Source of the DNA: Cephalotus follicularis
Taxonomy: Eukaryota > Streptophyta > Magnoliopsida > Oxalidales > Cephalotaceae
Length of the DNA: 64,000 nt
NCBI GenBank assembly: GCA_001972305.1
Contig: BDDD01000084.1
Coordinates: 550,668 to 614,667 of the forward strand
Reading direction: 5' to 3'
Of this stretch, positions 6,935 to 62,079 are shown in pieces. The position numbers and the translations under genes are program-made. The notes under the pieces were generated by a model. The model had not been told where the DNA came from, did not search any database, and saw only the letters and a list, made by a program, of their open reading frames with translations. The first letter of the stretch is position 1, and each line of letters opens with the position of its first letter.

Positions 6935-8115
6935 TGAAAGTAATGTAACTATATGGCAACCTTTAAACAACAAAAATACTTTGTATGCGGAAAATAAAAA
7001 TTGAATTATGAAAATGAATAAGCACACGATAACAAATAAATAAAGAGTTAAGGGATAGAGATGTGCAAACAAATTTATAGTGGTTCGGCAAATCCGTGCC
7101 TACGCCCACTTTCTCAAGAACCCCTTGAGATTCCACTAGCTACCACTAGCAACCTTTGATTTTCGGCTTACGGGTGCAAATCAAACAAACCACCTTACAC
7201 TTGATTTTGGGTACCGGGTGCAAATCAATCAAACACCTTACAAGGGTTCACTCCCCTCTTTTACAATGAATGAATTGTAAAGATAATATGTGTTTACAAA
7301 TAACCTCTCACAGGTTGAATATAAAAGTGTAAACATATTGCAAGCTTTGGGTATGAAAGTGTTTAGCAAAAGCTTGATGTTATTCTCTTTGTAGATATGC
7401 AAGTTGAGCTTTTGTGATTGAATGTTCAAAATGTTGTTCCTTAGTCACTTGAGCTTGTCTCTTGGCTTGTATTTATAGCATTCTTCAAATTATAGCCGTT
7501 GCAAAAGTCTTAGGCATATTGGATATAATAATTTGTTGATGCAGCCTTGTTTTAGTCTCTGCTGGCAGAAAGACGTCGATGTCTTTCAAAAGGCGTCGAT
7601 GTCTTTTGTGATATTTCCCGTTGAAAGTGCGCCAACTAGCCGTTCTATGTTTCCCAGGTCTTGTCCATTTAAAAAGACGTCGATGTCTTTTTAAAGGCGT
7701 CGATGTCATTTCTGAGAAATCTCCAAGCTTTTGAATGTATGAACATCACGTCGACTTCTTCTTCCTAGGTCGATGTCTTTTATGACTTTGGCAGGTTGTC
7801 TTTGAAAGGCGTCGATGTCTTATGAAAGGGATCGACTTCTTTTGTACGGACGTCGACTTCTTTGACTGTATGGATCGATGTCTTCACCAGAATTTGTCCT
7901 GTAACTTTGGGTATTTAATGACGTCGACTTCTTTCTTATAGGGATCGACTTCTTTTGTACGGACGTCGACTTCTTCTCTGGAAGGTCAATGTCTTTTGTC
8001 CTGCAGAAGATTTTTGCCTTGACAGCAAACTTTCCAATGCCTTGCACATTAAACAAACATGTTAAATGCAAATTTGTAATCATGAAAACTTAGGATTGAG
8101 TTTCAAACCCCAACA
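6935..8115. mobile_element. Solo LTR X, 1181 bp
   Basis: The insert runs TGAAAG to CCAACA (TG...CA) and is flanked by perfect AAACC target duplications at 6930-6934 and 8116-8120. It splits the RT of element A exactly; removing it joins GATAAAACC to TTTATCGAG, as in the uninterrupted element B. It has no coding capacity. It contains a GTGGTTCGGC...CCTACGCCCACTT block (7081-7110), seen in many plant copia LTRs, so a copia origin is likely but not proven. Its right half carries a phased TCGA palindrome array. Confidence 0.88.
7565..7995. repeat. Phased TCGA palindrome array in solo LTR X
   Basis: Palindrome centres (C of TCGA) lie at 7577 and 7597; 7681 and 7701; 7752 and 7771; 7813, 7833, 7854 and 7876; 7925, 7946, 7967 and 7987. 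Neighbours within a group are 19-22 bp apart. Words are of the AAGACGTCGATGTCTTT type plus a local variant GACGTCGACTTCTTT. The DNA between centres is largely unrelated, unlike an ordinary tandem repeat. Confidence 0.85.
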
Positions 8116-8120
8116 AAACC

Positions 8121-8354
8121 TTTATCGAGTAACTCCTACAATTGCACTTTCAAATCCTTTAATTTCGGAGGGGCCATTCGATAAGGCGATCTCGATATAG
8201 GTGTTGTCCCTGGCAGAAGATCTATAGAAAATTCCACATCTCTCTCGGGAGGTAAGGATGTCAATTCCTCCAGAAATACATCTGGGTATTCACATATAAC
8301 TAGGACATCTTCCAAATTTGGTATCCATTTTCTTCCATCGATAACATGTGCCAA
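8121..8354 (-). pseudogene. N-terminal RT linker of element A
   Basis: The minus strand reads [40 protein letters not shown] and LKDLKVQL. This is the conserved segment between protease and RT in Ty3/gypsy elements. It belongs to the RT part beyond solo LTR X and is in register with the same segment of element B. Confidence 0.92.
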
Positions 8355-8369
8355 GTAAGCATCACAACC

Positions 8370-8840
8370 CTATCTCAAGAGTCTGTCAGCCTGAATAGCG
8401 GATATCATTTGAGCTGGTTGATGCTCTAACATTCCAATGAACTGGAACGGAGACTGTCCTGGCAAATGGAAGGTTACAACCTTCCTATTACAATCTACAC
8501 AAGCGTAATGTGCAGATAACCAATCCATTCCCAAAATTATATCAAGTTCGTCCATCAACAACACTATCAGATATGCCAATAGAACATGTCCGTCGATCTC
8601 AATGGCACAAGACTTACACACCCATTCGGAGGTAACAGACTCTCCTACTGGTGTGCTCACTTCCATTAAAAAGGGTAAGGGCTCCGACTCCACATTTAGA
8701 CGGCGTGTAAAATGCAATGAAATATAAGAATGGGATGAGCCTGAGTCTATAAGAGTCCGTTCCATACTATGAAATATGTATACCGTACCTCCAATCACTA
8801 AGGCAGATCCTACTGTGGCCTGTTTATCCATAGCATACAC
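8370..8840 (-). pseudogene. Retropepsin-like protease of element A
   Basis: This 156-residue minus-strand frame holds the aspartic protease: TLIDSGSSHSYISLHF with the catalytic DSG, then VGESVTSEWVCKSCAIEIDG and DIILGMDWLSAHYACVDCNR. It would process the Gag-Pol polyprotein. Key residues are present, but gag upstream and RT downstream lie in other frames or beyond stops. Confidence 0.92.
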
Positions 8841-8866
8841 CCTACCTTACACGGTAGGTGTTAACC

Positions 8867-10411: not shown

Positions 10412-12275
10412 TCTAACGCCCCAAACCCTAAGGGTGAACCCCCAAGGCTTGGTGTGCTACAAACTATGCCATACTCTTCATTAGCATTGTAGCAGCATAA
10501 ATAAAACATTTAAATATATAATAAGGCATGCAGAACAGTCCAATAAAAATCATAACTTAAGTGGATAAAACCCCATTTATACAATATTGTTCACAACCAG
10601 TACTCTGCCACAAACCGGCAGGTCATAATACAATTTACCATTACATTTATACCACTGGGTCGTCGAACTGCATAGGAGGGGGAGACCTACTCGAGTTTTC
10701 TAATCCTCTACTTGCTGCGAAACTCCACCTGCACCTGACCAATTACATTACAATGCAATGGGTCAGCAACTACTGGTTGTGTAGGAACTACAACCTATGA
10801 ATGCATGGAGTGCTCGGGTGCAGCAAGTGTATGTAATTATGCCAACAGAGATATATGCAAGTGTACAACCATACAATCCAGAAGTCCATAACATTCAAAC
10901 CATTCATTACAGTCACTTATATCACTCCTCGGCTTGCCTCGCTTAGGGTGGAGCAGAGAACGCACTCCAGACGTTAAAGGCAGAGAAGCCAAGATGGGAA
11001 AAACAATGCATTTATTAGGCAGACTTGGTTCCTCGCATGCCTTGGCTTGAGGAAGAGCAATGTACGCACTCTATGCGTTATAGGCAGAGGAGGGGAACAT
11101 ACACATTCACATTTATCCTTTAGTCATACCTCATCACAGTTATAACATTTATACATTAACCTTACACAATACAATAACATTCATTTAACATTGTGGCTCA
11201 TCTCGATTAGTGATCCATCAGTCTCATCTCAATCAGTGATCCCCGTGTGCTATTTGCCTCGGCGACCCTCCTGGTTCATCTCAGCTGGTGACCCATTGGT
11301 TCATCTCGGACGATAGCTTTCCTGGTTCATCTCGGCGGTGACCGCGTTAAGGTTCATCTCAGGGGGTGACCCAGTACATTACCCATTTATCTATACAGAG
11401 GTATGTCACTATTACACTTAGTATGCCTTACGATACATTCACTAATTCGTCCTCTGACTTAATCATTGCTCGGTCACGCTAATCCTCCTCGGGCACATTC
11501 TTATTCTCGGACACATCAGCACTAGCGCTGCTCGTACACGTAGTCCTGCTCGGACGCACTAGCGCTGCTCAGACACATTACATTTCACTAAACACTAACA
11601 TTCAATTGAAGATTCTATCATTTCCAGAGGATGATAATTCACCTCTAACTTTACATTTCCTAATACATTCATATCCATTAGTCTAGTCAATTACAGAGCA
11701 ACACATACATTTCAAACATTATACAATGGTTCGAGTAGGTAGTAGAACCTCCCTTAATACTGTCGAAACTCGATCCCTTTGAACTCAAGCTTCCAAAATC
11801 CTTCTCCATACTTTCCTTCCTTGCCGTTAGACACGAACTGTTGCTCCTCTGACTTCTATCCGAGCTCTCGCCATTACAATTACTCATTCGCTTTCAGAGT
11901 TGTCCACTTCATGTCACTCTCAAGGCTAGAAGTGAGGGGATTTAAATGGTAGTGGAGAAGAGGGACAAGAATTCTCTAGACAATGACAGATTCTTGTCTC
12001 CTTCCCCCAAAGATGCAGTAATCGTCCCCACTCGCATCACTTTCCATTATATAGACATACGATGGAAGGCTCTGGAACTTCTTACACATTTCTTCACCCG
12101 GTGCTCACGATGTGGGCTGAGGACTTGAGTCGGCCCAACCATTCATTCGAAATTTGGCCCAATACATTCATTAAAATTTCGGTCCAATACAGGGGAAATG
12201 TTTCCAAGCCCAATTTACCATCCCTTTCATGAGGAGGAAACATACACAATACATGTAAAATTTAAGGGTGTTACA
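10412..12275 (-). repeat. 5' LTR of element A
   Basis: This is the partner of 2413-4255. The inner end has drifted to TCTAACGCC where the outer LTR reads TGTAATGCC. It holds an extra GGTTCATCTC..GGTGACC unit at 11321-11370 that is absent from the left LTR, and its TCGGACAC minisatellite (11470-11580) differs in copy number. The stem-loop seen at 2737 is present at 10736-10766 with one mismatch. Confidence 0.93.
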
Positions 12276-14479: not shown

Positions 14480-14872
14480 TGTAACACCCCGGACCCGCAG
14501 GGCAGACACGTGGCATTACTCTCAATACAATATACAATACAATGGTCGGGACTAGAAATATAAAAATGCGGAAAACTTTAAAACTTTGCAATACATATCA
14601 TCTGCGGAAGATACAATACACTGATCCATACATACGGTGCAATACAATACAAATCCTTTACAATACAAGTCTTTTACAATACATTATCAATCTTTCAATA
14701 CAGTATTACAATGCAATACATTTCCATCCTTCACTACAATATCTTTATCAGCTTTGAGATACCCAAGAAGTCGTGCGGTCAACGGGTCTTCAGTCCTTCT
14801 GTCCACTGCTACCTGCTGCCCTACCTATGCCGCACACAAAGGTATAACACAGCCCCATCCCGAAGGATGGGG

Positions 14873-14889
14873 TTAGCCACATTGGCTAA
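14873..14889 (-). other. LTR stem-loop TTAGCC / GGCTAA
   Basis: This is a perfect 6-bp stem with a 5-base loop, next to a GC-rich second hairpin (GCCCCATCC with GGATGGGG, 14852-14872). Both recur at 36693-36725 in element D. The position, downstream of the TATA box and leader in transcript sense, suggests an RNA structure in R or U5. Confidence 0.6.
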
Positions 14890-15526
14890 GCAAAAACCCC
14901 ATACAGCATGTATGCATGTACAATGTGCAATATCGGTGACAATCTATACAATATCAATGTGCGGTGTACAATATCAATGCATGACATGGCAAATGTACAT
15001 GTACAATTGGCGATCAGACTACCCGTATGACAGTGGCCCATAACAGACCATACAGATAGGATCTATAACAATCAATCAATGGCAGATACTCAATGGTGGT
15101 GTATGAAACACCCAAGCAATCAATCAATATCCTATAGAGCATGCGACCGGGTCAATACAATGTCAATCGGTTAGCGGTGATCAATCCCGCGGAAGGTAGT
15201 CCTTCAAAAAGGGTGGGAGATCTACCTACGGTTCTCAGACTGATCAGGTCTGGAACGCATAGGTCTTCCAGCCTATGGCTGGGCTAATACAATCTTGATG
15301 AGCTACAACTGATGGAGCTACTGATGCCGTTAGGGAGCTACGGCCCTCAGCGAGCGTTAATCGTCAATCAATCGTGCTCGTCAGCACATGCTCGTCAGCA
15401 AGACAATACAATAAAAGAAACGATCGACGGAATAGGTGGACAAGTCAACCTAACATGCTGACGTAAACCACAAGGTCACTCTATAGGATCCATACAATAC
15501 AATCAAGTCAATACAATGTAAGTAAA

Positions 15527-15869
15527 GTCAATAAGTGGTGGTGTCTAATGGAGAAATGGGAACGTGAGTCCATCGTACCGACTTAGACTCACAACAACAC
15601 TCATGACTCAAGCAATCGATCAATGTATCAATACAACGTCGAAGCAAAGTCAATAAGTGGTGGTGCCTAATGGAGGGATGGGAACGTGCATCCATTTTAC
15701 CGACTTAGACTCACAACAACACTCATGACTCAAGCAATCGATCAATGTATCAATACAACGTCGAAGCAAAGTCAATAAGTGGTGGTGCCTAATGGAGGGA
15801 TGGGAACGTGCGTCCATTTTACCGACTTAGACTCACAACAACACTCATGACTCAAGCAATCAATCATCC
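15527..15869. repeat. 122-bp tandem repeat in the solo LTR
   Basis: Units start with GTCAATAAGTGGTGGTG at 15527, 15649 and 15771, exactly 122 bp apart; the third is partial. Units 2 and 3 are nearly identical and unit 1 is more diverged, pointing to a recent duplication of unit 2 or 3. Element D LTRs have one copy of this segment (around 35990-36060). Confidence 0.93.
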
Positions 15870-16089
15870 CATAGCCACTAGGCGGTGACAATCGAATCGA
15901 CGGAATAGGAATGAACATCTATTTGGTCAATGAGAGTCACTGAGTCGTCACCTATGGCCCAAGCTATCACTTTATCAATCTATCAATTCGATCTTTGAAA
16001 ACCATTGGAAACTGTGTTTTAAACGCTTGAATACCTCAATGTGAAAAGGGTTGAAAAACCAGCTTTAACAGTTAAAAAATTCCACTCAG

Positions 16090-16412
16090 CCAGAAAGGCG
16101 TCGATGTCCTTAACAAAAGACGTCGATGCGTATCAGGGCATACTTTTGAAAACGGTAGAAAGACGTCGATGTCTTTCTCAATTTGGCCGAAGACGTCGAT
16201 GTCCTTGGACAAAGACGTCACCGCGTTTCAATGAAAATGGTCTGAGAACGCGCATCGATGTCTCGCTTCGACGCCTTCTCAGAGGAAAGACATCTCAAGC
16301 AAAAGACGTCGACGCCTTTCAAGGACGTCGATGTCTTTGCTGCGAAAACAAGGAGGCGGCATCCCAAGCGAAAGACATCGATGTCCATGGGCAAAGGGAT
16401 CGATGTCTTTGC
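16090..16412. repeat. Phased TCGA palindrome array in solo D-family LTR
   Basis: Centres lie at 16102, 16124, 16167, 16197, 16219, 16256, 16269, 16310, 16329, 16379 and 16401. Several pairs are 19-22 bp apart and others about 41-43 bp. Words are variants of AAAGACGTCGATGTCTTT. The long open frame over this stretch is a side effect of the repeat. Confidence 0.85.
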
Positions 16413-17126
16413 TGGGAATGGCCGATTTATCTGCAGAAAACCAGCAATTTTCAAGCTAAAATCCAATCAAATCCATTCTTTATGAAACCAATGGTTAAAA
16501 ATCGTTCTTTAAGGTTAGTAAAACTAGTTACAACATTCAATTTAACATTTCAATCTTTTTATTAACAATTAGGTCAAGGATTTACCAAAAACCCCAATTT
16601 CACTCAGTACATTCAATTCAATCATTCAATCAGTCATTCAATCATGCAATTCAATCAATCAATCAATAAAGCAGTAGGTAATTCAGTAAAGAAGTCCTAC
16701 CTGTCACTGAAGCTTCAAAAGTTCAGCTCCCAATCAATCAATCGGCAAAAATCGCCCAAAAATCCGCTACTTTCTTGTTCAATCGGTAAGCCACCACTTG
16801 TAATCGGTGTCCTTGTTGAAGGAGCTGCAAATCCGGCTGCAAGAGAGGAAGATGGAGGCTCCAGCTAGAGAGAGAGTGGGAGAAGGATACATAGAGGGAG
16901 AAAGATGTGTGAAAATGAGAGAGTGAGAGTGAGAATTGACTTATATAGTCGATACGGTCAACTATCCGAAACTCTGCCCAAAATCCCGACTATACATGCA
17001 TGTGATCAAAACAATATCAATAGGTATAAGAATACCTCAATTCAATACAGTTCAGTACGGTCTAAAACGGTACAATACGGTACGATGTATGCATGAACAG
17101 TACAAAAGGGAATTCGGGTCGTCACA

Positions 17127-20716: not shown

Positions 20717-23354
20717 TGTCACGCCCCGAACCGTGGGATGGGCCCCACGACTCGATACGTGGAAATCCGTACAATCATCATCATAATTAAGCATAAAAAT
20801 TAAACTTAAAATAAATCATAACCATGAATCTTTATTTAATGTGTGGATAAACAGACCCAGTTTACACTGCTATAAACCAGAATAAAATAAATACATAATT
20901 TATCTCTTGCAACTTGTCCATGAAAGCGTACTGTCGAGGAGGAGTAACTTACTGCACTCTTTATCCTTGCTGCTGCTGCGATGTGCCTCCACTACCTGTT
21001 CCTGTACCTGGCCCATTCAGAGGAATGGGTCAGCAACCCTGAGGGTTGTGTAGGTTACCACATACACGGGCACATACCAGAGGAACAAACACACAAGCAG
21101 AGGAGAAAATCATAATAAATATGCATGTCTACATGAATGCAGATCACAATCCATGACATTGTCATTATCATCCTTTGTCCTCGAACTGCTCTATTCAAAC
21201 CATACATATCACCTACAGAGGAGTCTAGTCCGGTTATACTATGGTCTGGTCAGTGTATAAGGTTCACCTTTAGGCTCACCAGCCCACGGAATTCTCCTCT
21301 GGTTCACCTACAGAGCGGTTCACCCTTTGCTCACCTGCTCGCGGTTGAGCCCTTGGATCACCAGCTCTGGCGGAATTCACCCTTAGGTTCACCATTGGCT
21401 GATTCGCCCGAGATCACCAGCCTCGCGGAGTTGGCCCCATTGGGCTCACCAACTCGGCAGAATTCTCCCCTGTTGGGCTCACCAGCCAGGGACCATCTAT
21501 CTAAGACTTTTCCCTTTACATTCCATTTTCTAATTCCATTTCCTTCCCTGGCGTATTTCCCTTTTTCTTTCCTTTGGATTCCTTAAGCCATTTCTTAAGT
21601 CAGACCAGGGGTCACCATTGTGCATGGCATCTCCCATGCACAAGGTTCACGTCAAAGCATGCATGGCGTATGCAGGACGTAATCTTCAATTAGCTGCCCA
21701 AGCATGCATGCATACGTACATATTTCCTTACTTGTGAATACATGCGGGGAACAATACTTGGGCGGGGACGCATGCATGCTTACAAGCAGCAATCTTTCTT
21801 TTTGAACGCATACTGGGAAGACATGACAGAAGACATCATGCTCCTCAGGCGAAAGCACTGTCTATGGCAGGGATGAGCCATTGGGCACCCCGGGTAGAGA
21901 AGGACCATAATCGGCTCCTCTGGCGCCTAGCAGAGGAGACCCACAACGCAGTAGGACAGGGAAGGGTCACGGACGGTACCTCTGGCGTGTGTCTCCTCCA
22001 ACTTTGTCACCCCGACGCGCCTCCCCCGGCTTTGTCACCCCTGGCACCTCTCCCCCGGCTTCGTTAACCCCGGTACGTCTCCCCCGGCACCTCTCCCTCG
22101 ACTTCGTCTCCCCCGGCACCTCTCCCCCGGCTTCGTCTCCCCCGGCACATTGCTTCCCATTCTTCGTCACCACGGCCATGAGTCTTTCCGGGCATAGTCA
22201 CCACAGGTGTATGACACCTCTGGCATGGTAGGGAGCTCAGGCATGGCAGGGGAGCTCAGCACCACGTTCCTCGGTACCTCATCTCCTCAGCATAGTCACT
22301 TTGTCATCCCTGGCATACCTCCTTGGGAGCTCGCATGGCACGTCACAGAACCATGGGTGTCCTGTTTTTCACGCCCTGGACGCATGCCTTTTGCTCGCTG
22401 GCGATGAAGGGAGCCCGGCGCCAGCTAGTGAGGCGTGGTGTGTCACCATGCTTAGGCGCATGGCCAGGAAGGCTCAACTCCATCCTGGCGTCCCTGCTCA
22501 TGGCGTCATTATGCGTGTGTACTGTTTATACAAACAGTAACGCATAATGTAGGGAGGGGGACAACACGTGGGGCAAACAACATGGTTCATACACGGGAAC
22601 ACATATACATATGTATATATCCTACTTGCAAATGCTAATACAAACCGTAATGCACCTCAACAAGCAAATAAATAAACAACCAATGAACGCACACAGCAGA
22701 CAAACAATAAAACATCACACAACAATCAAGCATACACACAGCAGCTGGTAGGCACTCGGACATGGAGCAACCTACTTGGGGTAAGGTTGAGAACGGAGAT
22801 GCTTCCTCCTCTCCTCATAAATTCTGGTTTCTCTTCTCGGCAGAGGTCTGCTACACACTTTGGCTTTGCCAATTATCCTTCCTTGCACATCCTTGCTCGC
22901 AGGGGATGAGGATTTATACAAGAGAAAGCACAGGAGACATAGGGCCTCCTTGCACAGCACCTCTCTTGTCTCCTACGTCCCACTCTCTCACTCTCCCGAT
23001 TTTTCTAGAACAAAACGTGAAGAGAATGGGTAAAAGTGTAGCTCCCAGATTTTTTTATAGTCATTATGGAAGTGTCCAGAATTTTTAAGAGATATCAAAC
23101 GGATGCAGACTCTTCTTCTGGGCTTGGGCCGACTTCCCCAATTGGTCCTCTCTTCTTTATTTTCAAGCCCAATCGCCTTATACCATATTAAATTCAGCCC
23201 AAATAAAAATAAAACAATTCTTAAGCCCAAGGTCATAATCTATATCCCATTAAGACCCAAATAAATACATCATAATTATCGGGTCCAACCCAAAAGGCGG
23301 AAAAATAATTACAAAGCCCAATAATAATATTTTATAATATTTAGGGCTCTTACA
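20717..23354 (-). repeat. 3' LTR of element B, long form
   Basis: It matches the right LTR over its first about 850 bp and last about 190 bp. It also holds about 1.59 kb (21568-23162) absent from the right LTR. It includes GGTTCACC/GCTCACCAG minisatellite units (21260-21490) and a GC-rich minisatellite (21990-22150). The TGGCCCATT..AATGGGTCA stem-loop is at 21009-21032. Confidence 0.9.
21990..22150. repeat. GC-rich minisatellite, CCCCCGGC type
   Basis: There are about seven imperfect units built on CTCCCCCGGCTTCGTC and CTCCCCCGGCACCTC, 20-30 bp each. The frames across it are repeat artefacts. It lies in the LTR segment missing from the other LTR of element B. Confidence 0.85.
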
Positions 23355-46065: not shown

Positions 46066-46714
46066 TACATGACATTACATAAAGTAACATCATAAATCCC
46101 TACAGCTTCAGCGATGATCCTAACTTTTCTTAGTCCCTGCAATGAATTGCAACGGTTAGTTCCACATCCAGTATCCAATACCCATGAAGAACTACTATTC
46201 AAAGCTAGATTTAGTTCAATCATGAACATACCTGATGTACTTGCACCATGCAAAACATCAGAAGAGACTCCAGCACCAGTAACTCGATAATCCTTTTTCC
46301 AGTGCCCGGTCTTACCGCACTGGAAACAAGCACCTTCAGCAGCTAACTTCTTCAATCGATCTTTGGCAACACTCCCACTAGATCCAAGCTTCCCCTTCTT
46401 CTTCTTTTGCTTCTTCTTACCCTTGCCTTTAGTGTTGACAGGCATGAGCACGCCCTTCCCTTTATAGGAAGATGAGGCACTGCCCTTTCCTTGGGTAGAC
46501 CTAGAAGATGGAAGACACAGGGAGTGGGTCTTTGACTTCCCAAAGTCAAAATCGGCCTCAACCGTCCTCAACATAGCTATCAGCTCAGACAGAGTCACCT
46601 CTATCTTGTTTATGTGAAAGTTCACCAAAAACTATGAGAACGACTTAGGAAGGGACGTCAAAATAAGATCCACATATAGATCATGGCCCATGACAAACCC
46701 TAATTGAGCCAGCT
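46062..46714 (-). pseudogene. Gag C-terminus and protease of copia E
   Basis: The minus strand reads HINKIEVTLSELIAMLRTVE, a lysine-rich basic tract (KGKGKKKQKKKKGKLG), a zinc knuckle CFQCGKTGHWKKDY whose last cysteine is tyrosine, then the protease active site SSSSWVLDTGCGTNRCNSLQ. A stop before FLVNFHINK breaks the Gag. Upstream Gag (LYVDLILTSLPKSFS) is cut off at 46714 by LTR F. Confidence 0.92.
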
Positions 46715-47894
46715 TGTAATACCCTGCTTGTTCGTATGTGCTTTATGGATATTATATATATATATGTATGTGTGTTGTTTTCGGACTTTTAAATTTGTTT
46801 TATTTTAAAGTCCGGTCACCCTGTGTTTTGGGCTTATGTGATTTGGGCTATTTGATACTAGCCTAAATTTTTGGATATGTTTATATGTTAATGTACGTTG
46901 GGTTGGGCCTATGTCATGTCTTTTTTTTTTTTATCAAACTTAATTTTACAACTTTCAAAATATTAAAACAATTCCATTTTATTTTAAAATCCTTTTATCT
47001 TATTTTATTTATTTTCTTTTATCTTTTTTATCTTTTATTCTTTTCCTTTTCTTTCTTCTTCCTTTCTTTCCTTTCTTCTCCTCCCTTCTCCCGACACTCT
47101 CTCCCTCCCTCATAAATTCCACACGTCTTCAATCTCCTTCTTCCTTATTAAGCCGATTTTGTCTCCTCTTCTTCCTTAACAATTCCTCAAATCACTCTAA
47201 TTCTTCCTGTTTTAAAGAATGTCAATGCCTTGGGTATTTGCCATCCGTTTTCTCTATTTGTCACTGCCGATTTCTGCTTGTGAAGCTTGTGTTAATCTGC
47301 TGAGGATTCATTTCATCAGGTTGTTTGAGGTAATCTCAATTTTCTGTTGTCCTTTGGTTGGATTTCTTTGATTGGTTTGAAGCTTTATACTTTTCTCTTG
47401 GTTTGGTTCTTTTGGTCCCCTGTATACAGCCGGTTAACAAGTTAACTATGGTGTTTTTGCTATGTTTCTGGATTCTGGATACTCATTCCAGGTTAGTGGT
47501 TTCACTGTAATGATTGTTTCACTTTGTCTTTGGTTTCGTTGCTAATATTCTTAGTGTCTTTTGATTCCTATGTATACATATGTTCTGTCATAGTGTTAGT
47601 AAGTCTGTCAGCATGTTTTAAATGCCCTAAACATGTCATAATATGGTTTTAAATGTCTGCAAGTGATAATGGATGAAATTTGGACCTAAACATATGCATA
47701 TGCTTAGAGAATTATTTCTTTCTCTTGTAGTTAGACCACTGTCTAACTGTTTCCATGTCGATTATGTGTTCCTGTATCATCTAAATGTCATATATGGTCA
47801 TATGTTTATGTTCTTGTGTCTCTGGTTTAATGTCATTTTCGTTTAAACCAGTTTCTGCATGAAATTGTCAAGTTTCTGCTGTTCTGTCGTCCAG

Positions 47895-48085
47895 AACAGT
47901 CGGTTGTTCTTGTGGACAGTCGGCTGGATTGGATGAGTAGTCGACTGTCTTGGGTTGTGTAGTCGACTGGATCTAAGTGACAGTCGACTGCCTGCATTCT
48001 GGTTTGTGTAGTCGGCTGGCCCTTGTGATTAGTCGACTGTCAAGCTTCCCCAGTCGGCTGGTGCTTTGTAACAGTCGGTTGTTTT
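47895..48085. repeat. Phased CAGTCGACTG palindrome array in LTR F
   Basis: Nine centres lie at 47901, 47921, 47942, 47964, 47985, 48013, 48034, 48055 and 48076; spacings are 20, 21, 22, 21, 28, 21, 21 and 21. Words are CAGTCGACTG, CAGTCGGCTG and CAGTCGGTTG. Spacers of about 11 bp are all different. Confidence 0.92.
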
Positions 48086-49154
48086 GCCCAGAAAAGTGTT
48101 GTTTTCAACTGTTTTGATTTGATTGTTCCTCGAATTGATCCGGGTCTTTTCCAAATACTGATGTAAGTCTGTTTAATGTCTTTAATGTTTCTTAGACCCT
48201 TATATGAATGGTTTTGGGTGTCTTTTAGATTGTTGTGCTTCAAGGGGAGTTTGATTTAAATCATCTATCCGTAAGTGCTTTTGCGAACGCATAAGGTACG
48301 GATACTTCGTTCCTTGATACACTCTTATGATTTTATCAGAATAAATGAGTTTTGCGTTATGCTATGCTTCTTCGTTTATTAAATTGGTAATGTTTTATGG
48401 TTTTGACATGTTTCGAAAATGAAGTTGGTTTGACATTTTTGAATGTTTCCGACTTTATTCATATGATACGAAATGATACGATATGTTACGATATGTTATG
48501 ATCACCTCTTTATAGCGAAGTATAAATGAGTTGATGTTTTGACTATGAAATGTATGTTATGATACCGTTGTGAACGATTTTTAAATATGCTTTGTGAAAG
48601 CATATTTATGTGTTTTTAAATTGATTTTGATAAATCAATGTTTCTGAAATGATTGAATACTGAGTATTGTACCCACCTATGGGGCGTACCATAGGCATGT
48701 CGTAGGCCTGACACGGGGACATGACACTTCCGTAGCGGTGTGATTAGTCTACGACGTCTCTGAGTGTTATGAATAAATCCCATGAGTTGGATTTATGGAT
48801 CCGCTATGTGATAGAGGCGTATGAATCGATTCTAGTATATGATATGTGATATGTGAGAATTGACTTGTGTAGTGCCGTACACTTCAATTCTAGTGGGCAT
48901 GTGGAATTAGCGCCTCCCTTGCCAAATATATGTTATGTGATATGTATGTGGCTCAGTATGACTTATGAATCGTGATATGATGTTTTGAAATGTTTCGTAA
49001 ATGTTTCGAAAGTTATATGGATTTTATGAAAGTACAAATGTGACTTTACGGATATGTAATTGTTTTTAATTGCTTAAGGTTTTTATGACAAAGTTTATTG
49101 AAATCTTACTGCTTTTAAAATTTATCGTTTACTGTTTTAATTCCCTTATCCGTA

Positions 49155-49169
49155 CTGAGGTTTGCTCAG
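49155..49169 (+). other. LTR F stem-loop CTGAG / CTCAG
   Basis: A 5-bp stem with loop GTTTG, at the place where other LTRs of the window have TTAGCC or TTAGTC stems. Confidence 0.45.
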
Positions 49170-49190
49170 CCGCGTTTTTGTTTTCCATTA

Positions 49191-49993
49191 AATAATAAAT
49201 AAATAACATCCATCCACACATAAAAAACCATAAACTAGGTCAATGTCTTTTTTCGGGCCATCCATTGTGCATAAGACTTATATATATAATATCCAATATT
49301 ATAAAACACAAATAAAACAAATGCTATAAATAATAACCAATTATAAAATTTAATTTAAGGATTGTTAACTGATCAAACTCCCACTAAATCAAGTAATGAT
49401 TTTTGATTTTCTAAGTGCCAAAATGTATAAAATCCAATTTTATTAAAAAATAGTTTTTTTAAATAAAAGACGTCGACGCTTCCCAGAAGGCGTCGACGCA
49501 TTTCACAAAAACTATTGAAAAAGGCGTCGATGCATAACACAAGCATCAATGCGTTTCACGAGAACTGTTGAAAAAGGTGTCGACATTTATCAACAACATC
49601 GACGCGTTTCCTGGGAATTGATGAACAAGACATCGATGCGTTTCAAGAGCATCGACGCGTTACACGAAAAGTTGAACAAGGCATCGACGTCTATCAAGAA
49701 CGTCGACGTCTATAACCCCTTGGGCAGTTTCTGCATTTCAAAAAATGCAGAAAATAATGGTTTAGACTTTGGCATTCCAATCTGGCAATCCAAACTGCAC
49801 TATGCAAGTTCCAAACAAAATCTAAACACATTTAAACAATATCCCCAGGACAAAAACACAATGAAATCCAATTTCATGCAATTTTCACTAAGGCACTTTG
49901 AAAATCTAGTTTGATCATAAAACATCTCCAGCAATAAAACCGTTAATCAGTTCATCATCTAAAGCATAAATTCAATCAAGGATGATGTGGGAC
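49191..49993 (-). other. Internal leader of copia E
   Basis: This is the region between primer site and lost gag start. It is AT-rich, with a palindrome array at 49465-49712. A plus-strand frame over the array (49549-49914) is a repeat artefact. No protein is recognised. Confidence 0.6.
49465..49712. repeat. Phased TCGA palindrome doublets in copia leader
   Basis: Five doublets are centred at 49474/49494, 49528/49547, 49581/49600, 49634/49653 and 49685/49704. Inside doublets the spacing is 19-20 bp; doublet to doublet is 51-54 bp. Words are AGGCGTCGACGCATTTC and CATCGATGCGTTTC variants. This is the most regular array of the window and it lies outside an LTR. Confidence 0.92.
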
Positions 49994-50005
49994 GCTCTGA
50001 TACCA
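49994..50005 (-). other. Primer binding site of copia E
   Basis: The minus strand reads TGGTATCAGAGC, complementary to initiator tRNA-Met, one base from the 5' LTR. Confidence 0.94.
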
Positions 50006-50006
50006 C

Positions 50007-52160
50007 TGATGGAAACGGATAAACCGAATCCGGTGCCAAAAATGGACTTAGGCATATAGGGTATAGAACAAAACAAAAAACATAGAAAATGGCAGCAGAA
50101 GAACACCTAATAAAAATAAAAAACAGTTCATAAGGCATGTCCACATACCACATGGATCACCACATCTTGGTCCTTCTCTTCTTGCCATGAATTGGTGTCA
50201 CCATAGCATACAATGGTGACATACAAGCATGGCAAGAAGAGAAGGACCAAGAGATATACCAGCGGGTGAAGGCTCCTTCTTTCTCTGCCGCTGCATGCTT
50301 GAGTAGATTCCCTTTTCCAAAGCTTCCAATGCGTTTTGCTTCCGATCCAATTCGAAGTCTAAGAGCTCCAAGCACCAAGATGAAAAATAAGGTTCTCTCA
50401 CACTCTCTCTAAACTTAGGAAAGGTAAATTGATATTGACCAATGAAGTCAAAAATCAATCCACCCTAGATAAGCTCTTGCTTGGTGTATCACAAATGAAG
50501 GGAACACTCACAATCTGCATAGAGAAATACGATTTTCTCTTGCCCAGGAAAACTCTAGCACCCCTTTACATTTTCTGCAGAAAATGCTTATCACTAGCCT
50601 CCTCCTTCTCTCTCCCACTCTCCCATTCACTTAGGATCATGGTCCTCACTCCTAGGGAGTCTATGGCCATGATCCCCACGTTTTCATAACATGAAAGAAT
50701 GGGAAATGGCTGTTGGAGATGAGAGAGAAAACGTGCCCACGAAGTGAGCTCGTGCACAGGTTGCACGTTCTGCTCAAAGACGTCGACGCCTTCCAAAGGA
50801 CATCGACGCTTTCTAAAAGACATCGACGTCTTTAAAAACGTTAAGCATAGATGTCTTTCTAAAAGACGTCGACGCTTTGTCTGGCCAGTGAAGCAATTAG
50901 AGTCTAACTCTTTTAGTGATCTCATGTACCATTCGAATATTAGTTAAGTAAGATCAAACATATGTGTTTCCACAAAATACAAAATCCATATAACCGATAT
51001 TTGACACCAAGACTTAATATGTCCAATATATTAAAGAAGTAATCATTATAAGACAGGGACCCTTTAAAATCTTGGTTAAAACAAGAGGTATTCATCAATT
51101 ACCGAAATACCCCTAGGGTCCGGTTTAGAAATTCTAAATGCTCCTTGACCAATTTAAATGCTATTAGAATAATATCCAAATATTATCCAGATGGAAAAAT
51201 TAATCTAATTAATTTTCCTATACACCTCATAAACCCTAGATTTTCTAAGTCATTGGTTTACGTGTACTATAATCCCTTGTCATGCTTAGCCCCTATTGAG
51301 GTCTAGGGTAAGGATATGTGTCAATCCTAGATAATACCTCAATGGATAAAATATCTGATCATTACTAGGACCTTTGGTAAACTCTCTAAAAATCTAATTT
51401 CCAGTCCACCTCAACCTTGGCCAAGGATTTCATAAGCCCAAAGTATAATAAGACCGTAATAGGGCCGATCACCTTCACTCAGGTGTGACAATCCCATATT
51501 GCGCACTCACTTATATTCGTATAGATTCGATCATACCCAAAGACCATCCGATTGCCAGCCCTGGGTAAGGACTGGGTAAGGTGGAGATCAAAGCATAACC
51601 GTCTTCATACAATATAGAGTAGTCTCTCAGGTCTAAGAATCAGACGAGTTTGATAACTCGCTAAGTGATGATCACTTATACACAACCGCAACAAGTAGGA
51701 GTCACTACTGACACGAGAATAGCGACTATCCAAATAGTGTCTCCTACGCGGGTCCAGTTCAGTATACACGCTCCCAGCGTGCACCCCGTATTTGCCCTAG
51801 TGTCCAACACAGATGGTAGTGAGAGAATCCATCCTCCAATTCCATGAGCAAGTAACATATGCGCAAGTCTATCCGATTCACTAATGCCCACAAAGTGAAC
51901 CTATGACTTGGAACAGATTTGACATAAGGAATAAGGTAACCAGTCTCACAGCTTCCATGTCAGGCATCCAACCTTATGTCAGGGCATCACAAGTATAAGT
52001 AGGTAATTAATAAACTACTTCAATTATGTGATAAAATATAAGTGATGTAGCCATAACAAATTAGCACGCATCATATATATAAGGAATAAGATTGATTCCT
52101 ACAAGAATAGATATAAAACGACAGTCCATCCAATAGCTTGTCGGGTCACTATATCTAACA
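50007..52160 (-). repeat. 5' LTR of copia E
   Basis: It is 2154 bp, nearly identical to 41099-43272. It contains a short inverted duplication (50165-50189 against 50228-50252) absent from the other two LTRs of this family, and a palindrome array with centres 50784, 50804, 50824, about 50849 and 50870; one array unit present at 41890-41920 is deleted. Confidence 0.95.
50165..50252. repeat. 25-bp inverted duplication in 5' LTR of copia E
   Basis: Bases 50165-50189 are the exact reverse complement of 50228-50252. In the 3' LTR and the solo LTR at 31620 only the right arm exists, and a CATCAACAGAATT segment stands where the left arm is. A natural CACCAT..ATGGTG hairpin lies between the arms. Confidence 0.93.
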
Positions 52161-52925
52161 CGTAGCTCCCTAATGGTATAGAAGCTCCCTCGGTTGTAGC
52201 TCATCGAGATTGTATTGACCCAGCCATAGGCTGGAAGATCTACGCGTTCCAGACCTGATCAGTCTGAGAACAATAAATAGATCTCCCACCTTTTTCGAAG
52301 GAGTACCTTCCGTGGGATTGATCATTTCTATTGATTGACATTGTACTGACCCGAAGTCGCATGCTCTATTGGATATGATTGATTGATTGGGTGTTTAATG
52401 CACCACCATTGAGTGCCTACTATTGATTGATTGTTATAGATCATATCCATATGCTTTGTTATAGGTCAGTGTCATACGGATAGTCAGATTACCAATTGTA
52501 CACATGCATTTGCCATATCATGCATTGATATTGTACACAGCACATTGATATTGCATATATTGTCATGGATATTGCACATTGTACATGCATACATGCTGCA
52601 TGAGGTTTCTGCTTAGCCAGTGTGCTAACCCCATCATTCGGGGTGGGGCTGTGTTGTACTTTTTGTGTGCGACATAGGTAGGGCAGCAGGTAGCAGCAGA
52701 CCGAAGGCTTGAGGATTCCATCTACCGAGGGATCGTTTTGGATCTGACAAAGTTTGAATTTTTTATTGTAAATGTACCGACGAGTATTGTATTGAAATGA
52801 AATGACTGGCATAGTATTGTAACAGAATAGTATTGTATGGTATCGCAATGATGGAATATTGTATTGTATCTTCCGCACAATGACATGTTTTGTAAAGTTT
52901 TAAGTTTTTAGTATTTTTATATTGA
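52161..52925 (+). repeat. 3' LTR of element D, part 2
   Basis: It continues the LTR after copia E and matches 36246-37010, including the hairpin region (52613-52629). It is cut near 52926 by the CACTA-ended composite. Confidence 0.94.
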
Positions 52926-52963
52926 TAATGTATATTGATTTTTTTTGCACTCATTTACTTTAG

Positions 52964-54127: not shown

Positions 54128-54599
54128 GTGACACACACACACACTCTCCCTCTCTGTGTGTGCACGTATGCATGTTGTTTTTCTTATTTTGAAATTTGGA
54201 TATGAAATTCTAACCAAGATATTGAGGTTGGCGATTACTTCAAAGGATCGGTATTATGACCCTAACGCTCGGGGGTTCGGGGGTTCCGCTGCCCAGACAG
54301 CGGGCGAGGGCTCGAGGGCAGAGCCCCCGAAATGTATCCGAAATTGGATATTTGTTTTGGACCGAAAATTCTATTTCTTTAGTTATGTTTGTAGTTTGGG
54401 TTTTTCCCATCAATAGCCACATGATAAGAAACTATTAGGGTTTATTCACCTATATATATGAATAGCCACATGCTTGTACATTTAAGCAAAATAATTTGTT
54501 GTCTACAATATTGTATAATAATATATTTTTATTATTTTTTAATAAAAAAATCTGATTATAAAAGATTTAAATGAATTATATATTTTTTTATTTTTTAAA

Positions 54600-54953
54600 A
54601 CCCTTTTGAAACGGTTCGTGTTAACCGTTTCAAAAGGGTATTTTTTTTTTATTTTTTTTAAAACCTTTTGAAACGGTTAGTGTCAACCGTTTCAAAAGGG
54701 TCCTATTTTTTTATTTTTTTAAAACCCTTTTGAAACGGTAAATCTCTCCGTTTCAAAAGGGCACCCTTTTGAAACGGCAGCATTTAACCGTTTCAAAAGG
54801 GTACCTTTTTGAAACGGTTTGTCCGTTTCAAAAGGCTATTGATACGTCACTTTTTTGAAATTCCATTTTTCCGTTTCAAAACCGTTTCAATTGACATTTT
54901 GAAACGGAAAAAGAGGCCTTTTGAAACGGATTCCATCCGTTTCAAAAGGCCTG
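54600..54953. repeat. Inverted-repeat array of the CACTA subterminal region
   Basis: Hairpins of the CCTTTTGAAACGG / CCGTTTCAAAAGG type lie at 54601-54638, 54664-54700, 54725-54761, 54764-54801, 54803-54835 and 54918-54953, each with about 13-16-bp arms and 5-11-bp loops; loops differ. Unpaired copies lie near 54880-54910. Such arrays are the presumed transposase-binding region of CACTA elements. Confidence 0.92.
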
Positions 54954-57800: not shown

Positions 57801-58631
57801 ATCAAGAACCTCACGGCTCGACGCGGGGTAAACTGTCCATACGATCCATCATTATAAATATAGTATAATATCCAAAATACGCTATAATTTAAAACTTTAA
57901 TCATCAACCAAATAGCGAAAAATTAACCATTCAGATACTTGCATAGCTAAATCCAAAGTTATACATCAAATAACATATATATGTAGCACTGCTACAAGCT
58001 AGCAGGTCGATACAACTGAAATACAAAAAGTCTTATATAAGGTAGATAAAAGCGAAACTGAACTGTAACTAGAAGTCATGTCCTGAAGGTTCGGTCTGAC
58101 TCATTTCGAGGTATCATCTGCACTCGACACTAAAAAGTGTGCTCATTTCGAGAATGAGTCATCCAAACACGGTTATGTAGGCAATAATATATGCAATGAA
58201 GTGAACAAGTATATACAGATATATGCATGACATGTGAAATGCATGAATGCCAATTGTGGACAACATTAGTACATCAACTGTAAAAACCACAAATTTCAAT
58301 TAATGTATATTATATGATTAATGAAAAAATTATACATTAAATTGAAGTTAAATGTCTATTTATTTTGTGAATTGTGATTATTGGATTTAATTGAGGGCTC
58401 AGTTGAATGAAAATTGGACCAAATTGAAATAAATGGGAAGTTGTTTAAATAAAACTTTAAAAAGGAATTGTGGCGCCAAACCGTCGACACTAAAGAAAAA
58501 GAGTCGATGCTTTGACAAGTGCAAACCATCGACACCCAACTCCCAAGCATCGACGCTTTGTGTTTAACCGGCAACGGTTTGCACGAGGACAGGTGTCTAT
58601 TTCATTCGATTATGAGCGGAGTGGTGGCATG
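57801..58631 (-). mobile_element. Decayed gypsy LTR segment
   Basis: AACCTCACGGCTCGACGCGG, the CAGTTG..ACC and GTCTGACTCATTTCGAG..ATGAGTCATCC blocks and GGTTATGTAGG parallel the A/B LTR order (CACGACTCGA, GACCCATT..AATGGGTC, GGTTGTGTAGG). Similarity is weak. It includes a four-centre palindrome cluster (58478-58562) and ends at the start of LTR I. Confidence 0.45.
58478..58562. repeat. Phased TCGA cluster, CGTCGACGCTTT type
   Basis: Centres lie at 58485, 58505, 58530 and 58551; spacings 20, 25 and 21 bp. Words are ACCGTCGACACTAAAG, GAGTCGATGCTTTG and GCATCGACGCTTTG. Confidence 0.75.
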
Positions 58632-59335
58632 TGTAACGCCCCGTAGCTGTTTTGGAGTCTAAGAAAAAACTTTTTCTATGGTGTATAATTTTGATTTTTT
58701 TTTTTTGGGCTTTGGACTTATTTGAGTAAGAGAGGAAAGTTAAGTATTGATTTTGTTATAAGCCCAAGTGTAAAGTGTGATTAGAAATAGTTAGAGGACT
58801 TAAGAGCAAAGTTTGTTGAGGAAGTTTCCAAATCCCAAGGTGATATGATGGCTTTTGTGGAGTTTAGCAAAGAGATAATTTCTTTTTGGTGTTGGCTTTT
58901 CCCTTAGCTTCGGCAGGTTAGAGTGAGAGAGAGAGCTCTAGTTCTTCTTCTTCTTCTTCCTTGTCCTTGACGAGCGAGAGGAGAGAAGCAGTTTGAAGCT
59001 TTCCAAGCTTAGCGGAGAAGCAGCCAGGCGTAGTAGCAGACGAGGAGAAAGAGAAGAAGTTCTCGTCAAAGGAAGCCAGTAAAGAACGCAGCCAAGAACT
59101 GTGAGTGGGACATCCTTTCTATGTTGTAGTTGTTTCATTATTTTCTTGATAACTCCTTCAGTTTTCAGTTCCAGTATAGTGAGAGCTTTCTAACGGGAAT
59201 TTGTTTCCCTAGCGTCCTTGTATGTTTTCTTTGACAGAAGAGAGAAAGAGAGTTTCCGAGCACTAGAGCTTAAGTTTCTTCTAAGTGATTTAGTCACTTT
59301 CCAGATAAGGTAACGTGTACGTGCTCAACCCCACT

Positions 59336-59590
59336 CCTCGACCTACTATTGTCTATGATGGGAAGTCGAGCGAGACTTCCCCCAGGTCCTACCTGGATCT
59401 CCTTTACACTATTGTCTATGATGGTGTTTAGGATTTGAGTGCAGCCGAGTACTATGTACATAGCTCCTACCTCCTCGGTCTACTATTGTCTATGATGGGA
59501 AGCTGAGCGAGACTGTCCCCAGGTCCTACCTGGATCTCCTTTACACTATTGTCTATGATGGTGTTTAGGGTTTGAGTACAACAGAGCGAA
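59336..59590. repeat. 137-bp tandem duplication in LTR I
   Basis: Copies start CCTCGACCTACTATTG (59336) and CCTCGGTCTACTATTG (59473), 137 bp apart. CTATTGTCTATGATGG occurs twice in each copy, so the unit itself contains an older internal duplication. Confidence 0.92.
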
Positions 59591-60153
59591 GTTGTCAGAG
59601 TAGAGATTAGAGCCTTTCAGTAAGTCTTATAGAGGATACATTGTCCTCGACAGTCATGCCTTCAGCTTAGATAAGTAAGTAAAGCAAAGAAATAGTAAGC
59701 TCATAGGAGAACCATGGGTTCTCGGCAGATACTGCCAAGTAGGCTTCGGCCTAGATCAGCTTAGCTCAGCTCAGCGCCACTATAAGTTGGCAACTATATT
59801 ATGTAAATAGCAAAGCAAAGCATAGTAAATAAAAGTAAGTTCCAGGCTAGTCTCATCCTTCTCGGCACCTCAGGCCAAGTTGGATCCTCTTCCAGAGCAC
59901 TTCAGTAAGTCTTTGTTTTATCTCAAGTTTTCTTCAGCTTTGTAAGTATCTTAGAGCACTAGTTAAGCAGAGGAAAGAGTAAGATTTTCTTTCATGTCCT
60001 TTGAGCGTTTCTTCAGATGTGAGCCATGACTTTATGTTTGTATAGTTTGCTTTTTTTTTTCCAAGTTGGGATCTTTAATCATGTTCATGGCATGCTTTCT
60101 TTTAGCACATTCATTTTAAGGAATGTACCAGATGATATTTTGTTCTCATTCAC

Positions 60154-60170
60154 TTAGTCAGTTGGACTAA
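60154..60170 (+). other. LTR I stem-loop TTAGTC / GACTAA
   Basis: A perfect 6-bp stem with loop AGTTG. LTR G has the same stem with loop ATTTG. Confidence 0.55.
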
Positions 60171-60780
60171 TCCCATCACAGATTGTTTTGCAGAGGACCT
60201 GGCAGGAGGAGAAGATCCTCCATACTAATAGTAGCGATCTCTAGAAGGTAGCTTTTTGACATCGGCATCTTGGATGATACGGACCAAACATCTAGCATTA
60301 CATAGCATTGGGCATTCCTTTGGGTTCCTCTACCTTCTTTTTGTTGTTGAGTAGCTGAGAGTATATCTTGTGTGTAGAAAGTAAGCTTTTGTTGTTCTTT
60401 CGTTGATCAGAGGATGTTTTAGTCAGAGGATGAACTTGTTATGTAATAACACTTTTAAGAAAGTATTTGATGTTTCTAGCCAGTGAAGTGGTTTTACTTT
60501 ATGTTTTGATGAATGTTTTATGTTGTGAGCTTTATGTTTTAAGGTTCACCCGAGGAGCTGGAGAGTCCTCAGATAGCATAGCAGAGGATAGCTTAGCAGA
60601 GGTTTGTAAGAGTAGATGTTTGAGCAAGGGGTTTTACCCGAGGAGCTGGCATTCCTTGAATGAGGAGAAAAGGCTTTTCAGTAAGTAAAGACTCTAAGGG
60701 GAAGTCCTCAGAAAAAGGTCAGAGGAGACAAGAAAGCCAGAGGTCCGAGGACGACTTGATGTTGTAACGCTACAGTGTTT

Positions 60781-62079
60781 TAAGTTAAGCTGTGCGTTGA
60801 GGCATGGTTTAGTTTATGATGAGAAATGCAGAAGAGAAAGCCCGTGGAGTAGGTGTGTCCTCGGGTGTTTAGCAGACTTGAAGTTAAGTGATCTTTTGAG
60901 GAGCACGTGGGTGTTCTCCTCGGGCATAAGCGATGCAATGCGCTTTGGAGATTTGGTTAAACAATGCTGGGGACATAAGCAGGAGAGGAGTTGGATCCTC
61001 TGCCGCTTTGGATCCTCTGTCCCGGTTGCCGTGTTAACTGCACGCCCAGCCCAGGCTTGTTGTTTGGCCCTGTGTAGCAGGTTAGAGGATCGACCCTTGT
61101 AGTTTTAGAGTAGTTAGTTAATCAGGGTTGTTGGCAGGAGCGCCATCCCCGGGCAGGGCTCGTCCTCGGTAGAGTTAGCGGGAACAGGTCGTGTCAGCAT
61201 GTCTGGTGTTTTAACATGGACAGGTGTTATGGAACGTGTCAAGCAATATGAATCAACTGCCAACTGCTGCTTGAAAGGGAATTAGACTACATGAGTCACC
61301 TGCCACCTGCAAAACCGAAAGAAATAAAAGAAGAGTGAAGAGAAAAGAGCAAAACAATGAGTTAATGGTTAGAGAGAGAGGATAAAGAGTTAAAGGTTAG
61401 AGTTAACAGTTTAATCGATTCACTGAGGTAATTCCTTATATCAGGACTGTTGAGAGATGAATCGAGAGATTGGAAATCATCTGGAAGGGAGAATCTATCT
61501 GTTATACTGTATTGAGTTTGCATGCTGGAAGCTCAAATGAAGTGGTAAGCTTCTAGATCGAATTCGTTATTGGTTTTGTAGTTTTACACTTATATGTATA
61601 TTGATTCATGCTGTAAATACCTACTGTTAACATGTAAACGTAGATTGATTCTGGAATTGAAGTGGTTGAATTGGAATCGAAGGAGTATTGGAGTTAAAGA
61701 GAGGAATCAATAAAATTGATTCTGGGAAAGCAATTTGAGGTAGGATTTATGACATGATTCTGAACATGTATCATGTATATCGTGTTGTGATGATTTTTAT
61801 ATAATTGCATGTTGAATGGGATTGAATTGTACTGTGAATATGCATGCCCTGTTCTTCTGGAATTGCATAAATGACATAAACCGTCGACGCTTAAAGCATA
61901 AATATCGACGCTTTAGGCGAAATTACATCGACGCTTAAGTGAAGAACACTGTTAATGCTTTAAGAGAACCATCGGCGCTTTAGTTGAGACTGTTGACGTT
62001 CTAGTCAAAACTATCGATGCTTAAGGACATGTTTCATGTTTAATACTCCTAATTACACGGGATGATTTCCAATAATCCA
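60781..62079. other. Unassigned LTR-like DNA before LTR C2
   Basis: The first part (to about 61100) is rich in GGATCCTC/GAGGAC words like LTR I. From about 61300 a GA-rich stretch and then a palindrome cluster (61880-62024) suggest the start of another LTR that is cut at 62080 by the second family C LTR. No coding region is recognised. Confidence 0.35.
61880..62024. repeat. Phased TCGA array, CGTCGACGCTTTA type
   Basis: Centres lie at 61885, 61906, 61929, 61953 (TTAA, decayed), 61973, 61994 (TTGA) and 62015; spacings 21, 23, 24, 20, 21, 21. Words such as ACCGTCGACGCTTAAAG fit an ancestral palindrome TAAAGCGTCGACGCTTTA (inferred). Confidence 0.8.

Follow-up and report, generated by a model that had tools for sequence, protein, structure and literature searches.

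Regularly spaced TCGA-centred dyads in gypsy and copia long terminal repeats of Cephalotus follicularis

Sireviruses carry in their long terminal repeats (LTRs) clusters of palindromic "repeated motifs", which were described in 2010 and which, in the accessible part of that paper, are absent from the classic elements compared (Bousios et al. 2010, PMC2829016). Here we describe arrays of short dyads centred on TCGA in LTRs of both gypsy and copia type in Cephalotus follicularis. All evidence comes from one window, a 64-kb stretch (64,000 nt; contig BDDD01000084.1, 550,668 to 614,667) dense with nested LTR retrotransposons. An earlier sequence-only reading of this window knew of no described name for such arrays, a statement that is too strong in view of the Sirevirus motifs (PMC2829016).

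Sirevirus repeated motifs are characterised by at least eight copies per element and by a location ahead of the TATA box, within the upper half of the LTR. Two of the 13 motifs given in the available text are centred on TCGA (Vitis CGGTCGACCG and tobacco Tnd-1 ACAATCGATTGT), and a CGG-CCG signature is present in 12 of the 13, Tnd-1 being without it (PMC2829016). The linker between pol and the 3' LTR has a mean length of 1.50 kb in Sireviruses and 0.078 kb in classic copia elements. Palindromes in the cis-region of maize Sireviruses (Bousios et al. 2016) resemble the present arrays in forming clusters in an LTR regulatory region with predicted secondary structure; according to the portions available, the motif is a different one, and small-RNA data exist for maize (PMC10760457, PMC5311732).

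Number, words and hosts of the arrays

The window contains 239 TCGA tetranucleotides, of which 85 lie inside 13 clusters totalling 2,664 bp. The density is 31.9 per kb in the clusters against 2.5 per kb outside, and 83 of the 85 cluster TCGA stand in the context RTCGAY, compared with 44 of 154 elsewhere; cluster limits were drawn by hand, so that these counts are descriptive. Pairs of TCGA 19-22 bp apart number 41, against a mean of 1.98 and a maximum of 8 in 100 dinucleotide shuffles, and removal of duplicate LTR copies leaves 29 pairs against 1.6. Among the 4-mers with at least 40 occurrences, TCGA ranks fourth in enrichment at this distance (third without the copies), and those that outrank it, CGAC, GTCG and GACG, are all pieces of the same array words. 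The 18-bp dyad AAAGACRTCGAYGYCTTT, scored as matches out of 18, is found at 57 sites with at least 15 matches, against 0.2 in ten dinucleotide shuffles. All 57 are located in arrays, as are 74 of the 86 sites at the looser threshold of at least 13. The arrays are beyond chance.

The array-bearing LTRs belong to four families: S1, S2 (with a split relative, GH), B, which is gypsy, and C, which is copia. Arrays built from AAAGACRTCGAYGYCTTT occur in S1, in B and in both the LTRs and the leader of C. A second word, CAGTCGRYTG with near forms, recurs with a period of 20-22 bp in array F (nine units, one gap of 28) and in S2, where six units form two groups; array H consists of seven units of a third word, close to TCGACGCTTWA. 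Mean matches per half-site (left/right, of 7) are 5.9-6.2/5.7-6.2 in B, 6.2/5.2 in S1, 5.5-6.0/6.0-6.6 in the C LTRs and 5.3/5.8 in the C leader array (Clead); in H they are 4.2/4.4, so dyad symmetry is partial there, and likewise in F. Information peaks at the TCGA core, which is partly built in, the sites having been picked by consensus. Three TCGA triplets with gaps of at most 45 bp (11732-11771, 45289-45314 and 58107-58149) were left out because either the regular spacing or the word is missing from them.

The sequence-only reading had counted twelve clusters in at least eight distinct LTR-type sequences of gypsy and copia type. The clusters are real, although 13 are drawn here; the figure of eight holds for copies (S1, B1, B2, B3, S2, C1, C2, C3), which reduce to four families, the superfamily is shown for B and C only, and Clead (49474-49704) and F (47897-48081) are not shown to lie within LTRs. 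Its distance of 19-22 bp agrees with the 41 pairs, but gaps of 25, 28, 31-37 and 49-51 bp are found too. Its palindromes are dyads in S1, B and C, whereas H and F are partly directional repeats. As it noted, words differ between elements, those of S2, GH and F being other than AAAGACRTCGAYGYCTTT.

S1 is a solo LTR of 1181 bp with TG..CA ends (6935-8115, minus strand), flanked on both sides by the 5-bp target-site duplication (TSD) AAACC; it lies inside gypsy element A and breaks the homology between A and gypsy element D. Its array comprises 14 sites (7568-7996, minus strand; LTR position 120-548). Element B has its 5' LTR, B1, at 34696-37078 (plus strand), followed by the primer-binding-site (PBS)-like TGGTATCAGAG. 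The first part of its 3' LTR, B2, lies at 39513-41098 (plus strand); B2 is split by element C, and the homology picks up again at 52161-52927. Arrays of 10 sites (35400-35716, plus strand; LTR position 705-1021) and 12 sites (40200-40567, plus strand) occupy B1 and B2. A solo LTR of the same family, B3 (14480-17126, minus strand; TSD CGAAC), is 73-80% identical to B1 in the main masked segments and has 11 sites (16093-16411, minus strand). B3 is made longer than B1 by a 122-bp tandem repeat at 15508-15866, with three copies at 94%.

Copia element C (41099-52160, minus strand; TSD CGTAG) has LTRs at 41099-43272 and 50007-52160 and a PBS-like sequence at 49994. Its 3' LTR, C1, holds six sites (41857-41993, minus strand) and its 5' LTR, C2, five (50775-50880, minus strand). 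C3, an internally shorter solo LTR (31620-33146, minus strand; TSD ATATC; 74-86% identical to C2 in the main masked segments), holds seven (32367-32524, minus strand). Clead is located about 280 bp past the PBS, within the leader of C, with ten sites at gaps of 19-20 and 32-34 bp (49465-49714, minus strand). The nine [CT]AGTCGRYTG words of F (47890-48090, plus strand; gaps 20, 21, 22, 21, 28, 21, 21, 21) lie in an undelimited stretch.

S2 is a probable solo LTR at the 3' LTR border of element D (23358-25289; minus strand inferred from its ends; TSD CATCC). It fills the space between the LTR of D and the A-homologous internal part, and besides the TSD, its termini match, and it accounts for an additional 1.9 kb that nothing else explains. 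Its first array consists of two CAGTCGACTG words 21 bp apart (25080-25120, minus strand) and its second of four CAGYCGRCTG words at a spacing of 20-21 bp (24005-24085, minus strand). Array G, with four TCGA (58470-58565, plus strand), stands in the first part of an S2-related LTR that begins near 58279, and H (61870-62030, plus strand; gaps 21, 23, 24, 20, 21, 21) in the second part. Most simply, G and H would be two arrays of one LTR, GH, split by K, a probable solo LTR of 2565 bp with TG..CA ends (58632-61196; TSD GCATG) that has less support than S2. The duplications of S2 and K come from a search for CA plus a 5-mer and can be chance (three such ends exist for S2).

Like the Sirevirus motif, the present arrays consist of many copies of a short, dyad-symmetric palindrome clustered in an LTR. 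In the accessible sections of that paper, a near-identical motif also recurs in Sirevirus elements of very low homology, and some elements hold more copies outside the LTR (PMC2829016). In contrast, the arrays described here are not Sirevirus-specific, occurring in gypsy element B and in copia element C with its short, classic-type linker. The 18-bp consensus AAAGACRTCGAYGTCTTT contains neither CGG nor CCG, hence no CGG-CCG, and the spacing is fixed where none is reported in the text available (PMC2829016). CGG does occur in some F and S2 words. Against the Sirevirus minimum of eight copies per element, S1 has 14 and B1 10 per LTR, C has 5-7 per LTR plus 10 in the leader, and S2 has six.

The classification of B and C follows from a Pfam scan of 20 stop-to-stop open reading frames (ORFs); six ORFs of the window reach at least 200 aa. 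Between the LTRs of B, at 37374-38920, are a gypsy-type gag and a protease (RVP_2); the gag matches PF03732 with 74.8 bits (cut-off 24.1), and Ty3_capsid stays below its cut-off. Of ten gag matches, the seven that are named come from plants (24-48% identity; five from Dendrobium). No reverse transcriptase was found in the scanned ORFs of the 2.4-kb internal part, and B therefore looks non-autonomous or deleted. Element C encodes RVT_2, integrase pieces, GAG-pre-integrase and a zinc knuckle (44116-46631). Its reverse transcriptase reaches 61% identity among 120 listed of 5,052 matches, most named ones being from Hibiscus, and one search against solved structures gave no match. No Pfam match was obtained for the last pol ORF of C (43387-44094), which we read as RNase H from its position behind RVT_2; 114 bp lie between the stop of this ORF and the LTR. 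With this linker, if the ORF is RNase H, and with B placed in gypsy by its gag, neither element is filed as a Sirevirus. What is new, then, is a word and phase common to gypsy and an apparently non-Sirevirus copia element, palindromes in Sirevirus LTRs being already known from the published part consulted (PMC2829016). The mode of action of the arrays may resemble that of the Sirevirus motif, with which we do not claim identity.

Relationship and conservation of the arrays

With arrays masked and LTR borders corrected (B LTR to 37078), no cross-family match between S1, B, C and S2 was found at E <0.01. The matches obtained were B-B, C-C, G-S2, H-S2 and one of 57 bp between Clead and F at E 0.003. 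We then kept the words and shuffled the spacers 60 times in six arrays (S1, B1, B3, C1, C3 and Clead). The 13 cross-family pairs gave z values of -1.3 to 2.5, compared with 7.1 and 6.2 for the two within-family pairs. The S1-C3 pair is borderline, with an array score of 55 against a shuffle maximum of 54, and the remaining 12 lie inside the shuffle range. The copying of one array between LTRs, which the sequence-only reading had named as the outcome that would undo it, is thus not seen in 12 of 13 pairs. Because cross-family matching is explained by the words alone, the arrays have words in common, not a still-readable history.

The shared words could nonetheless reflect descent, with or without function, if a single ancient tandem repeat had been carried from LTR to LTR through recombination or template switching, followed by decay of its spacers. 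The identical 18-mer in gypsy and copia LTRs is compatible with this, as are the S1-C3 score above all 60 shuffles and the gain or loss of whole units, C3 having an extra one of about 20 bp. The other 12 pairs, the lack of likeness beyond the arrays and the different words of the related LTRs S2 and GH point the other way, and we consider such an origin unlikely.

S2 and GH align at 72% over 130 columns at their start and at 62% over 268 columns at S2 926-1172, and an array follows each of the two aligned places. In the second arrays the first GTCGAC falls in the same alignment columns; the first arrays are not aligned base for base. The words around TCGA are of the CAGTCGACTG type in both S2 arrays and of the TCGACGCTTWA type in H and partly in G (two of four units TCGAYGCTTTG). 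As a single pair of low identity, S2 and GH provide a lead, not proof, for concerted turnover of words. We tentatively suggest that unrelated gypsy and copia LTRs of one plant may have converged on a common grammar, consisting of a TCGA dyad, one helix face and one dimeric host-factor family. In each LTR, the bases surrounding the core would change together when the specificity of the factor shifts, leaving core and phase untouched.

Conservation was measured in family B over the first 1.55 kb of the LTR, arrays included. Between B1 and B3, identity is 139/162 in dyads against 74/119 in spacers (p 9e-6) and 865/1195 outside the array; between B2 and B3, it is 150/180 against 89/135 (p 5e-4). 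B1 and B2, the LTR pair of one insertion and equal at birth, serve as a neutral control and show no excess (dyads 164/180, spacers 127/133). This pattern is what constraint while the family was active, followed by drift, would give. As to the earlier claim that sequence between the palindromes is not conserved, adjacent 18-bp dyads leave only 1-4 bp, so an unconserved spacer is informative only where a dyad is missing. Core CpGs of the arrays tend to be better kept in LTR pairs (12/13 against 49/72 elsewhere, p 0.10), from B1 to B3 (8/9 against 13/26, p 0.06) and from C1 to C3 (5/5 against 13/25, p 0.07), which is suggestive only.

Phase, candidate factors and alternative explanations

The all-pairs spacing spectrum peaks at 10.2-10.4 bp. 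In a test where primary gaps were fixed and other gaps jittered by up to 8 bp, the signal near 10.4 bp gave p 0.020 for seven arrays, 0.072 without Clead and 0.028 for S1, B1 and C1, and that near 21 bp gave 0.52, 0.48 and 0.46 for the same sets. This run included five of seven H sites and three of four S2 sites; a repeat on complete site lists gave 0.018 and, without Clead, 0.082 near 10.4 bp, against 0.60 and 0.54 near 21 bp. Coherence of the secondary gaps in the three sets is 0.06, 0.34 and 0.23 at 21 against 0.40, 0.46 and 0.47 at 10.4; with complete lists (with and without Clead) it is 0.11 and 0.24 against 0.33 and 0.43. Helical phasing is modestly favoured over a 21-nt register. The small-RNA register that the sequence-only reading had also entertained is therefore unsupported, the secondary gaps being less coherent at 21 than at 10.4. 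Its dimeric protein on one DNA face is the best-supported reading, given dyad symmetry, core information, conservation of the B dyads and the coherence near 10.4 bp.

We put the probability that the arrays are helically phased sites for a dimeric host protein controlling the elements at roughly 0.55. They are probably functional protein-binding sites, and we infer the binding, the host origin of the protein and the control of transcription. On this reading, LTRs and leaders of plant LTR retrotransposons would contain cis-regulatory clusters, built of dyad-symmetric TCGA-core sites to which a dimeric host protein probably binds. With a spacing of two helical turns, in places three to five, all bound dimers would face the same side of the helix and could cooperate in setting how the element is transcribed. 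The common core and phase of unrelated families would result from their response to the same host factors or to related ones.

TATA-like boxes, called by sequence alone, give the arrays a varied position. The S1 array ends about 90 bp upstream of a box at LTR position 639 (two further matches exist in S1, one within the array), and that of B1 (705-1021) is downstream of a box at LTR position 170. The B array lies in the upper half of the LTR and those of C1 and C2 in the lower half. These positions would suit a factor that, like enhancer proteins, can work both before and behind the start; they would not suit a role confined to U3 (unique 3' region).

Several observations weigh against phased binding by a host dimer. 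The helical test is modest, and sites within an array are not independent of each other; when Clead is left out, the peaks at 10.2 and 22.5 bp come out almost level (0.472 and 0.466), the 34-bp gaps of Clead match neither a 10.4 nor a 21 period, and adjacent gaps alone peak at 10.6-10.7. In family C only the core stands out, and dyad flanks are not above spacers (C1-C3: core 23/24, flank 68/83, spacer 23/27, outside 1104/1348). The arrays have no constant place: the S1 array precedes its TATA-like box, those of B and C follow such boxes, and Clead lies past the PBS. The LTRs of A, D and K hold no such array, the four copies examined each having 2-7 TCGA at scattered places. Finally, no known factor matching AAAGACRTCGAYGTCTTT was found.

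Among described sites, the DRE/CRT-type CBFHV, RYCGAC, is present on one or both strands in 9 of 9 F words and 5 of 6 S2 words. The ATCGAT form of the dyad (18 of 71 R-TCGA-Y sites) differs in having no CGAC across the core on either strand, judged by the motif as given in the available part of the source (PMC6804553), and a CBF/DRE-type factor therefore cannot explain all arrays. A bZIP ACGT core was rejected as the unit, as it is lost in ATCGAT forms when these are read from the sequence. Motif 1 of REM-GDE1 and CLSY3 CLSY4 is likewise a set of close, strictly spaced repeated sites in plant DNA; it consists of non-palindromic direct repeats of TTTTGCTTAT with a 1-nt gap (PMC12270911). No description of the dyad was found among the open PubMed Central papers listed, a scope outside which most subscription papers fall; nor were four 12-bp forms of it found in the papers retrieved for them, where of the words sought only AGTCGACTG turned up. 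In other genomes, a pair of the 18-bp word was found at 4 viral-contig loci and 12 genome-contig loci, and a pair of CAGTCGRYTG at 17 viral-contig loci. Each record has one site, and these were taken as chance.

About as unlikely as the spread of an ancient repeat is that the arrays act as RNA or cruciform hairpins, whose folded transcripts would be processed by dicing into small RNAs that contribute to silencing, a route proposed for the maize Sirevirus palindromes. Small RNAs are in excess over the maize clusters, as far as the accessible text shows (PMC10760457, PMC5311732), and the TATA-like calls, if correct, would place the B and Clead arrays inside the transcript. RNA of 8 of the 13 arrays was folded, and in every case its stability exceeded that of shuffles (z -2.5 to -10.2); since good folding is expected of any array of palindromes, this is no test of hairpins. 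The bases beside TCGA vary independently (GC 18, AT 18, AC 21, GT 14; odds ratio 1.1, p 1.0; nine arrays, related copies among them; one further site is G..A), also with one copy per family (GC 11, AT 8, AC 10, GT 9; odds ratio 0.98, p 1.0), which argues that base pairing is not preserved at this position. Moreover, within the B dyads conservation is highest at TCGA, the would-be loop, without a significant difference from the flank (34/36 against 105/126, p 0.11), and the S1 array stands upstream of its TATA-like box at 639.

An address for host silencing, with a sequence-specific factor bringing Pol IV or a methyltransferase to the arrays, is improbable. The principle is established by REM-GDE1 in Arabidopsis, which requires a series of sites set exactly one nucleotide apart (PMC12270911). 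However, the REM motif half TTTTGCTTAT does not occur on either strand of the window, an element should shed such a site rather than conserve it, and the array core CpGs tend to be better kept. Least probable is plain, functionless slippage of a tandem unit of about 20 bp: Tandem Repeats Finder does call parts of the S1, C3, B1, B2, F, Clead and C2 arrays, Clead is mostly a 53-bp repeat and family C flanks are kept no better than spacers, but unrelated families share one word, and in B the dyads are retained whereas the spacers are less conserved than the LTR as a whole.

Neighbouring elements and implications

The LTRs of element A (3440-3551 and 11488-11580) contain a separate array of about 18-bp units, TCGGACACATAGTCCTGC. 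Its first LTR has two exact palindromes GGAC-N5-GTCC (3443 and 3533), which look close to the CGG-CCG Sirevirus motifs, and the second has no exact unit. The LTRs of element D (21315-21394 and 30670-30829) contain 26-bp direct repeats of GCGGTTCACCCTTGGATCACCAGCTC or its rotations. At 54581-54817 are 62-bp and 40-bp tandem repeats, whose units have the inverted arms CCCTTTTGAAACGG and CCGTTTCAAAAGGG. Pfam further identifies RVT_1 at 6239-7099 and 27318-28178, and a Tf2-1-type SH3 with a weak chromodomain at 4315-5001. The reverse transcriptase of D gave no match among viral contigs, and Rfam none at gathering thresholds.

To our knowledge, little has been established, outside stress-responsive cases, about the host factors that activate plant retrotransposons and about their sharing between unrelated families. 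A shared dyad of fixed phase could serve as bait in the search for the factor, and a half-turn shift of phase would make a simple test. If the proposed reading is true, LTR palindrome arrays would extend beyond the Sireviruses.

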